NCBI GenBank assembly: GCA_030649895.1
Contig: JAUSEX010000037.1
Coordinates: 67,815-111,253, forward strand
Direction: 5' to 3'
Origin: Candidatus Omnitrophota bacterium
Lineage (GTDB): Bacteria; Omnitrophota; Gorgyraeia; Gorgyraeales; Gorgyraeaceae
Length of the DNA: 43,439 nucleotides
Numbering within the stretch: the first letter of the stretch is position 1; the number at the start of each line of letters is the position of its first letter. This document shows positions 31,653 to 37,537 of this stretch, in pieces. A model generated the notes under the pieces. That model was given only the letters and a program-made list of their open reading frames with translations, searched no databases and was not told the DNA's origin. A program made the translations under genes and the position numbers.

Positions 31653-31727
31653 ATGTCAATGACTAGAAAGAACAGAAGGGCAGATCAAAAGAGAAAGAGA
31701 AAAGGCAAGCGGCATGCAAGGAAGTAG
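31653..31727 (+). CDS. Very short, highly basic ORF (24 codons)
   Basis: ATG 31653 follows a strong ribosome-binding site (AAGGAG, eight bases upstream). The frame codes for 24 residues, over half of them Lys, Arg or His (starts MSMTRKNRRADQKRKRKGKR), and ends at TAG 31725-31727. The charge recalls tiny ribosome-bound basic proteins, but no family is recognised. Its end overlaps the pfk start at 31714 by 14 bp, so it could couple translation to pfk. Being short, it might be only a leader peptide or chance. Confidence 0.45.
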   Translation: MSMTRKNRRADQKRKRKGKRHARK

Positions 31728-32871
31728 GCCCTGTTCCACTCGCTCGTCCAGCGCTCAAGCGAAGCGGGTAGCGCTGGGTTGTGCTCGGGCGCGGGGCAAG
31801 AAAAGAATAGGCATTCTTACCGGAGGAGGAGATTGTCCGGGGTTGAATGCCGGTATCAGGGCGATCGCGAAGACAGCCATCCTTAATTACGATATGGAAG
31901 TTGTCGGTATAAAGGATGGCTTTTTAGGTTTAATAGAAAACAGGTTCCTGCCTATTTCTTATGAAGATGTTTCAGGTATCCTCGCTTTAGGCGGCACTTT
32001 TTTGGGAGCCTCAAACAAAGCAAATCCTTTCAGACACCCTGATCCTAAAGGTAGATTCAGAGATGTTTCTGATATGGCTGTAGAAAATTATAAGGCTATG
32101 GGTCTGGATGGACTGATCTGCATAGGAGGAGACGGCACTCTTAATATTGCCTATAGATTGCTTAAAAAAGGCGTTAGGCTGGTCGGGGTTCCTAAAACCA
32201 TAGATAATGATCTAAAGCAGACAGATACAACAATCGGTTTTGATTCCGCCTTGATTACAACTACCCAGGCAATAGACAAGCTTCACACTACTGCGCAGTC
32301 TCATCACAGGGTCATGGTTATAGAGGTCATGGGCAGGTATGCGGGATGGCTTGCTTTATATTCAGGCCTGGCAGGCGGGGGGGATATAATATTATTGCCA
32401 GAGATTCCTTACGATATTAAAAAGGTGTGCGAGGTTGTTTTAAAGAGAAATCAAAGCGGCAAGAGGTTTAGTATTGTGGTTGTAAGCGAAGGCGCCAGGC
32501 CGAAAGCCGGCAAAGTGGTTGTAAGAAAGATGGTAAAAGATTCTACAGATCCTGTCAGGTTAGGCGGGATAGGCAATAAATTAGCCAATGATATAGAAAA
32601 TATGACAGGTTTGGAAGCAAGGGTCACTGTTCTAGGCCATCTTCAAAGGGGAGGAGAGCCTTCACCTTTTGACAGGATACTGGCAACCAGATTTGGGGTA
32701 GAAGCCTGTAAATTAACAGTTAAAGGCGATTTTGGAAAAGTAGTTGTCCTGAAAGCAGGACAGATTCGGAAAGTGGATTTAGAGAAAGCTGTAGAAGATA
32801 TTAAGAGGGTAAGCTTAAATGAACCTGTTATCGATGTGGCAAGGGCGGTAGGGGCTACTTTTGGTATTTAG
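31714..32871 (+). CDS. pfkA: 6-phosphofructokinase (group III-like)
   Basis: The enzyme phosphorylates fructose 6-phosphate in glycolysis. Motifs: KRIGILTGGGDCPGLNAGIRA, ICIGGDGTLNIAYRL, VGVPKTIDNDL, TDTTIGFDSAL, VMVIEVMGRYAGWLA, LGHLQRGGEPSPFDRIL. The two residues that usually decide the donor are Gly (GGDG, next to Asp140) and Lys161 (PKTIDND); this Gly/Lys pair is known from ATP-using group III enzymes, so ATP is favoured over PPi. The first ~29 residues (before KKRIGIL) are extra: a Cys/Arg/Ser-rich stretch coded by a GC-rich segment with a perfect hairpin at 31748-31777. No better start lies near KRIGIL, so the extension is probably translated or the real start is non-standard. Confidence 0.93.
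   Translation: MQGSRPCSTRSSSAQAKRVALGCARARGKKRIGILTGGGDCPGLNAGIRAIAKTAILNYDMEVVGIKDGFLGLIENRFLPISYEDVSGILALGGTFLGASNKANPFRHPDPKGRFRDVSDMAVENYKAMGLDGLICIGGDGTLNIAYRLLKKGVRLVGVPKTIDNDLKQTDTTIGFDSALITTTQAIDKLHTTAQSHHRVMVIEVMGRYAGWLALYSGLAGGGDIILLPEIPYDIKKVCEVVLKRNQSGKRFSIVVVSEGARPKAGKVVVRKMVKDSTDPVRLGGIGNKLANDIENMTGLEARVTVLGHLQRGGEPSPFDRILATRFGVEACKLTVKGDFGKVVVLKAGQIRKVDLEKAVEDIKRVSLNEPVIDVARAVGATFGI
31748..31777. repeat. GC-rich hairpin in the 5' end of pfk
   Basis: CCAGCGCT (31748-31755), a 14-base loop and AGCGCTGG (31770-31777) form a perfect 8-bp stem. The segment from about 31728 to 31800 is far more GC-rich than its surroundings. It separates the apparent start codon from the first conserved residues of the enzyme, as expected for a small inserted element. 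Confidence 0.55.
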
Positions 32872-32899: not shown

Positions 32900-32928
32900 T
32901 TGACACAGTGGTATTTCTATGATATAAC
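32900..32928 (+). promoter_or_regulatory. Sigma-70 promoter of the predicted small RNA
   Basis: TTGACA (32900-32905), a 17-bp spacer and TATAAC (32923-32928). Transcription should start near 32935-32936, exactly where the first stem of the predicted RNA begins. Confidence 0.7.
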
Positions 32929-32935
32929 TAATAAT

Positions 32936-33034
32936 GGCAACTGAATCGAGTGTCTTTTCGGCAGCTCGGTTACCTTGTCGGAGAGGTTGTTGCCTTTTAG
33001 CCCTGTGCCTTAAATGGCGCAGGGCTAATTTTTT
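32936..33034 (+). ncRNA. Predicted ~100-nt structured RNA with three-way junction
   Basis: The transcript from the promoter above would begin GGCAAC, which pairs with GTTGCC (32936-32941 with 32989-32994) as a closing stem. Inside are two hairpins: ATCGAG with CTCGGT (32945-32950 with 32965-32970; includes a G-U pair) and ACCT with AGGT around 32972-32987. A strong terminator ends the RNA. The 206-bp gap between pfk and the next gene holds no ORF of note. It may be a free small RNA, or a riboswitch or attenuator for the membrane protein and helicase downstream. No known RNA family is recognised; similarity to purine riboswitches is only in the three-way shape. Confidence 0.6.
32998..33034 (+). 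terminator. Strong Rho-independent terminator
   Basis: A 12-bp stem (32998-33009 with 33016-33027, containing GCCCTGTGCC and GGCGCAGGGC, one G-U pair) with a 6-base loop TTAAAT, followed by six T residues (33029-33034). It ends the predicted small RNA, 43 bp before the next gene. Confidence 0.9.
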
Positions 33035-33077: not shown

Positions 33078-33434
33078 ATGAAGTATAAACATAAAGCTTA
33101 TGGCAGCATATTAGGCACAATAGGATTTTTACTATCCCCTCTCTCGTGGTGGAACGATCTAATTGTAAATTTTCCAATAGCTTATGCCTGCGCTTGTATG
33201 GTCAATCTGATATACAGAGGGGCGTTCCTGGCGGCATTTATTGTCTCCTACTGGATGACAAATGTCCTGGGATTTGTATTGTTGCAAAAAGGCCTGGAAG
33301 GCGTATTAAAAAATAGCAAAGAAAAAAAGAAATATTTATGGAAGAATTTTCTGAGAGATGTGCTGTTATCCCTTGCTTATACTTTATTGATAATATTGCT
33401 GGTAAGGTTTAGGATAATTAAGCCGGTAATATGA
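33078..33434 (+). CDS. Small integral membrane protein, unknown
   Basis: A 118-residue hydrophobic protein with about three transmembrane segments (YGSILGTIGFLLSPLSWW, GAFLAAFIVSYWMTNVLGFV, DVLLSLAYTLLIILLVRF) and a short Lys-rich loop (KNSKEKKKYLWKN). No family is recognised. It follows the predicted small RNA terminator and precedes the helicase gene by 32 bp. The ribosome-binding site is weak (AAGG). A regulatory link to the upstream RNA is possible. Confidence 0.65.
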   Translation: MKYKHKAYGSILGTIGFLLSPLSWWNDLIVNFPIAYACACMVNLIYRGAFLAAFIVSYWMTNVLGFVLLQKGLEGVLKNSKEKKKYLWKNFLRDVLLSLAYTLLIILLVRFRIIKPVI

Positions 33435-37461: not shown

Positions 37462-37537
37462 GGGGCAGTAGCGAAGTTGGTATCGCGCCGCAATGGCATT
37501 GCGGAGATCACGAGTTCAAATCTCGTCTGCTCCACCA
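37462..37537 (+). tRNA. tRNA-Ala (anticodon GGC)
   Basis: All arms can be folded. Acceptor GGGGCAG pairs with CTGCTCC and includes the G3-U70 wobble that identifies alanine tRNAs. The D stem is GCGA/TCGC. The anticodon stem is CCGCA/TGCGG with loop ATGGCAT, giving anticodon GGC after U33. The T stem is ACGAG/CTCGT with loop TTCAAAT. The discriminator is A73 and the CCA end is encoded (ends at 37537). It would read GCC and GCU codons. Confidence 0.97.

Follow-up and report, generated by a model that had tools for sequence, protein, structure and literature searches.

The gap between a phosphofructokinase gene (pfk) and a small membrane protein gene in DNA from a Candidatus Omnitrophota bacterium raises the question of whether it encodes an RNA in its own right or a leader for the gene behind it and, if the former, what that RNA might act on. 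Omnitrophota is a phylum for which no isolate is reported in PMC10066038. The whole stretch of DNA analysed, hereafter the window, spans 43,439 nt; the original prediction, made from its sequence, placed in this gap an RNA of ~100 nt that was either a small RNA or an attenuator.

Promoter, Fold, and Conservation of the Small RNA Gene

The promoter, described in the original prediction as near-perfect, consists of TTGACA, a 17-nt spacer, and an extended -10 TGA-TATAAC (TTGACA-17-TGATATAAC), of which the -35, the spacer, and the TG are kept in nearly all aligned relatives. It was not listed by a consensus promoter scan because its -10 hexamer ends in C. The 5′ end probably lies, as proposed, at the first base of the closing stem, the G of GGCAAC, 8 nt past the -10. 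For the RNA so delimited, the minimum free energy (MFE) and centroid predictions agree on a single fold (−49.7 kcal/mol versus −29.0 ± 3.5 for shuffles; z = −5.85), in which the two expected internal hairpins sit within a closed three-way junction and the terminator forms independently of that junction. The terminator, which was also picked up by a pattern scan, carries the anticipated six T residues, its stem being computed as 13 bp rather than the 12 bp first counted. The RNA contains no open reading frames of ≥60 aa, and the small membrane protein encoded downstream has no Pfam match. Coordinates are collected in Table 1.

Table 1. Features of the small RNA locus and its predicted target (window coordinates unless stated otherwise).
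Feature	Position	Strand	Remarks
pfk (phosphofructokinase)	31714..32871	+	Constant upstream neighbor; PF00365, E 3.6e-106; synteny
-35 element TTGACA	32900..32905	+	Read from sequence; kept in relatives
Extended -10 TGA-TATAAC	32920..32928	+	Read from sequence; TATAAA in relatives
Small RNA gene, predicted	32936..33034	+	~99 nt; probable 5′ end at G32936
Three-way junction, closing GGCAAC/GUUGCC	32936..32994	+	32936-32941 pairs with 32989-32994; fold and relatives
Hairpin 1	32944..32971	+	Fold; CGAG/CUCG portion retained in relatives
Antisense segment, predicted, ~37 nt	32953..32989	+	Complementary to both outer halves of the G000 class-D c-di-GMP-I riboswitch
Hairpin 2, ACCUU-GUCGGA-GAGGU	32972..32987	+	Stem invariant in 15 genomes
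Intrinsic terminator	32997..33034	+	13-bp stem 32997-33028, then TTTTTT 33029-33034
Small membrane protein gene	33078..33434	+	Downstream neighbor within the genus only; synteny
Class-D c-di-GMP-I riboswitch	G000:C38:5199-5282, outside the window		Predicted target of the small RNA

The proposed Rfam check (4227 families) returned no match at the gathering threshold, strict or lax, and the best sub-threshold matches were those of chance. The transcribed strand does not match the covariance model of the c-di-GMP-I (GEMM) riboswitch, RF01051, and only its complement resembles the outer parts of that riboswitch. The earlier statement that no familiar riboswitch core is visible holds for the strand that is transcribed, but it missed that this core, read in reverse complement, corresponds to a known type of riboswitch carried by the same genome.

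By DNA search, the small RNA was recovered from every one of the 12 genomes in the genus and from G013, G014, G015, and G018, which represent four other genera in the same Omnitrophota family, for a total of 16 genomes. A covariance-model search of the 292 genomes of the class gave, outside the family, only weak matches (E ≥ 6.8e-5, ≤32.7 bits) that were regarded as chance. Scanning 84,980 species genomes for the exact pattern gave 14 places, comprising 12 in genomes named as Omnitrophota, one in an “uncultured bacterium,” and one in Mycobacterium that is taken as chance. Promoter, closing stem, core, and terminator are conserved across the family. The covariation check suggested at the outset gave 98.3% of pair cells retained across 15 relatives, with changes on both sides of seven pairs (six in the terminator and one in the closing stem), a count reached by one of 500 shuffles. 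The inner hairpins hardly vary, with no change at all in hairpin 2 and at most core positions, and covariation is therefore no evidence for or against them. This near-invariance of the core, as opposed to a terminator stem that varies with compensation, suggests recognition by another molecule. We hold with high confidence that the small RNA gene is real, previously undescribed, and specific to this family.

Complementarity to a c-di-GMP Riboswitch

A first DNA search returned two weak matches that were not orthologues but GEMM riboswitches on the opposite strand. The G000 genome carries four GEMM (c-di-GMP-I, RF01051) riboswitches, and only one orthologous group, a c-di-GMP-I subgroup labeled class D here, fits the small RNA. 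When the 62-nt core was used as a whole-genome BLAST query at a relaxed threshold, and orthologues of the small RNA were set aside, class D on the opposite strand ranked first in G017 (E 1.8e-4), G002 (0.003), and G010 (0.16) and second in G007 (0.15). In the 10 genomes with both elements, the predicted pairing comprises 10–12 bp at the 5′ P1 strand and ~19–28 bp at the 3′ half, with P2 looped out; the 3′-half pairing spans ~24–28 bp in a fixed register in nine of the 10 and is shorter in G006, whose RNA carries a deletion. Substitutions on either side leave the pairing intact, namely AG to GA in G014, U to G facing A to C in G018, and U to C in G007. The G006 small RNA (L012, G006:C65:420-503) is missing ~25 nt in the 5′ half, with a GGCA repeat on either side, by true loss or assembly error, and its promoter, antisense core, and terminator remain.

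Binding energies were calculated by RNAcofold as the complex minus the separate folds, each RNA being compared with the GEMMs of its own genome and with sequence windows from the same genome. Class D reached z-scores of −2.9 to −6.9 against these windows in nine genomes, and in seven genomes no window was equally good; in G018, two of 250 windows were as good as class D, and because the background included the RNA’s own locus, the z-score is not usable. With larger backgrounds, none of 5,786 windows equaled the better class-D copy in G014, and nine of 5,300 were as good as class D in G000, which places it in the top 0.2% and not as unique. Shuffled small RNAs paired worse with class D, clearly so (z = −2.3 to −6.7) in all genomes except G002 (−1.2), and an RNA and the class D of its own genome paired better than swapped combinations (permutation P = 0.011, eight genomes, mainly G014 and G018), although the compared genomes are related and do not represent independent trials. 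Together, these comparisons indicate complementarity between the small RNA and a distant RNA beyond chance, and the small RNA gene can be read as a class-D GEMM without P2 on the opposite strand.

Other candidate partners were also considered. A general anti-GEMM RNA was ruled out, as the other GEMM classes lay mostly at background level (z between −2 and +1 by RNAcofold); single non-class-D copies scored well in G004 (−11.1), G005 (−14.2), and G018 (−13.0). RNAduplex energies were discarded because the program allows huge bulges and all GEMMs scored high. In three genomes, an exact match of 17 nt falls inside a gene coding for an ATPase-like protein, but in the sense orientation, and is thus not a pairing site, and the leaders of other giant genes showed no pairing with the small RNA.

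Class-D Riboswitches and the Giant Genes Behind Them

The class-D sequence reads AACCUCUCCGAUAAUAGCAAACC...CAAGGAUAGCCGAGUUGCCGAAAAGAGG, with a terminator after it in which GGCGAUUCGGCUAU forms the arm paired to AUAGCCGAGUUGCC. It precedes genes that start with MLDWQ and encode giant proteins (>2,300–3,273 aa), the open frames reaching up to 3,273 aa and still running off their contigs; the one in G000 matches peptidase C39. Class D, like the small RNA, was found in this one family only among the 292 genomes of the class. Enzymes of c-di-GMP are encoded, with eight GGDEF domains in G000. Giant proteins of Omnitrophota have been proposed to serve cell-cell adhesion, predation, or symbiosis (PMC10066038).

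Two still larger frames, of 10,989 and 8,190 aa (G005:C29 and G005:C5; loci L190 and L183), have the same MLDWQ signal-peptide-like N-terminus as the genes under class-D control. Another conserved type of leader, which contains no GEMM, lies ~300 nt before MLDWQ giant genes at L183, L185, L189, L192, L193, and L195 (G005, G010, and G011), with the sequence CATGGGAACCTC...AAGCCAGGT...ACCTGGCTT...CTCTCCCATGGCAGGCCTAT...AGACATGCCCTGGAT; it is possibly an undescribed structured leader.

Proposed Mechanism

On sequence comparison, the locus would be a free-standing, trans-acting antisense small RNA directed against the class-D c-di-GMP-I riboswitch, a reading to which we assign a probability of roughly 0.5. 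The class-D leader alone is predicted to fold with its terminator, and since this terminator shares a strand with the aptamer, c-di-GMP binding should turn the gene on. In the predicted complex, a long duplex covers both outer aptamer halves and the riboswitch terminator is gone, so the small RNA should turn the gene on independently of c-di-GMP.

A tentative model, possible rather than probable in its full form, is that a dedicated small RNA overrides the c-di-GMP riboswitch by zipping both P1 strands, extruding P2, and blocking the terminator, thereby activating the genes for giant surface proteins in the absence of the second messenger. Pairing would start between loop 2 (GUCGGA) and loop 1 (UUUUCGGC) of the small RNA and the P1 strands of the riboswitch, CCUCUCCGA and GCCGAAAA, the predicted contact sites on the class-D leader including CCUCUCCGA and GCCGAGUUGCC; the duplex would zip to ~35 bp with the P2 hairpin looped out, the small RNA would capture AUAGCCGAGUUGCC, the strand needed by GGCGAUUCGGCUAU for the riboswitch terminator, and giant-gene transcription would read through with c-di-GMP bound or not. 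The pairing is computational, we infer both the kinetics and the sign of the effect, and activation rather than repression would be the least certain step. No match to Hfq (PF17209) was found in G000, G014, and G018 by a search that recovered Hfq from five control genomes; a ~35-bp duplex may need no Hfq.

Co-occurrence and Alternative Targets

Among the 19 genomes of the family, 10 carry both the small RNA and class D, six carry only the RNA, two carry only class D, and one carries neither. The RNA-only genomes are G003, G004, G005, G011, G013, and G015, three of which are ≥90% complete; their RNAs mostly keep the complementarity and pair with the class D of other species. G017, in turn, carries class D twice and has lost the RNA from an otherwise intact pfk locus, and in G012 pfk lies at a contig end. 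With six RNA-only genomes and G017, the co-occurrence is not significant. Giant genes break assemblies, and an apparent decayed class-D remnant is present at locus L190 of G005.

These exceptions lend weight to the leading alternative, that the locus encodes a trans-acting small RNA with a conserved core directed at a different target or at a protein, the class-D match being a relic (an inverted copy without P2) or partly chance: the core is conserved in species without detectable class D, and G017 kept class D without the RNA. We nevertheless consider it rather unlikely, since whole-genome searches gave no other consistent target of the small RNA, the RNAs fit their own class D better than swapped ones, and the paired core is interrupted by a mismatch or an indel in three of the six RNAs from genomes without class D (G011, G013, and G015) and in none of the cores retained alongside it. 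The last pattern hints at relaxed constraint in the class-D-less genomes, in small numbers and across differing genera.

Complementarity is symmetric, and terminated leaders of ~110–150 nt are expected at low c-di-GMP, so that class-D leader fragments might instead act on the small RNA as a sponge or decoy. This appears improbable, as it requires another regulated target of the RNA, of which the genome searches gave none, and the RNA persists where class D is absent.

Synteny and the Cis-Acting Alternatives

In the 15 relatives, which span five genera, pfk always lies upstream of the small RNA, at a distance of 34–100 nt, whereas the gene on its 3′ side is the small membrane protein within the genus and a different gene in G013, G015, and G018. 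A constant upstream gene combined with a changing downstream gene points to a small RNA gene within the pfk 3′ region, not to a cis leader. For most of the species in the genus, the ATG of the membrane-protein gene falls directly behind the U-tract, within a few bases, where read-through could matter, and the RNA might accordingly be viewed as a cis attenuator or leader for the small membrane protein and for the uvrD-like helicase that follows. We regard this as improbable too, given the variable downstream gene, a terminator that is strong in every relative, and the lack of any visible alternative antiterminator fold; as a general role, it is rejected on the synteny. Of the two roles originally offered, that of a small RNA thus stands, with its conserved promoter and terminator and its fixed place behind pfk, and that of an attenuator does not stand as a general one. 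A pfk terminator alone, accompanied by a spurious site that resembles a promoter, is a very improbable reading of the element, for although no other terminator lies between pfk and that of the small RNA, conservation of the promoter, closing stem, junction, and core goes far beyond the needs of a terminator.

Comparison With Known Systems

Trans-encoded antisense small RNAs with their own promoter in a 3′ untranslated region include DapZ and MicL. The locus described here resembles these in its sigma-70-type promoter behind the upstream gene, its length of ~100 nt, a terminator shared with that gene, and exposed loops in a conserved core, but differs in that the predicted target is a riboswitch and not a ribosome-binding site, the pairing extends to ~35 bp, and no Hfq was found; it has no sequence relation to DapZ (16.9 bits in Rfam, cut-off 56). 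Unlike the c-di-GMP-I riboswitch itself (RF01051), the small RNA corresponds to the complement strand and has no aptamer core.

Trans-acting riboswitches such as SreA carry the riboswitch in the regulating RNA. Antisense-acting riboswitches similarly place it within the RNA that regulates (PMC9943018). Both link a riboswitch to an antisense RNA; the arrangement proposed here is the converse, with the riboswitch as the target. Among the papers searched, the closest case described is that of OmrA and OmrB, which act on the btuB mRNA bearing an AdoCbl riboswitch, the small RNAs and the riboswitch using different regions (PMC11162775). A small RNA and a riboswitch would likewise meet on one mRNA here, but the RNA is predicted to cover the P1/P3 strands of the aptamer and the terminator arm.

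What appears to be new is the near-invariant core of a small RNA that is antisense to class-D c-di-GMP-I riboswitches. The papers searched contained no described case of a conserved RNA targeting both the aptamer and the expression platform of a riboswitch, and none of them joins Omnitrophota and riboswitches, an absence that is not proof of novelty. Riboswitches are usually viewed as self-contained sensors. If the proposed interaction is true, a c-di-GMP switch would receive a second input through an RNA aimed at both aptamer and expression platform in a single subgroup of riboswitches, and it would offer a first handle on the control of Omnitrophota giant-protein genes.

Further Observations on GEMM Riboswitches and the Window

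Several other GEMMs have distinctive features. Two from different species, L050 (G009:C125:3440-3570) and L135 (G014:C10:86073-86230), contain a similar insert of ~70 nt directly past GGGACG that forms two hairpins, TCATGAACCAC..GGTTCATGA and GTAC..GTAC. Another c-di-GMP-I copy, L063 (G000:C20:18140-18275), has an extra domain of ~50 nt, GACAAGCCGTAACC...GTTAGTGAGGCAGTC, in the P3 region and has orthologues in at least nine genomes. At L075 (G004:C43:3591-3690) and L137 (G018:C121:543-650), a GEMM leads the operon upstream of the small RNA, which comprises pfk and the genes for two small proteins of secreted type; in the window species, none was found at this position. The window also contains a tRNA gene at 37462-37534 (66.8 bits), directly upstream of leuS.
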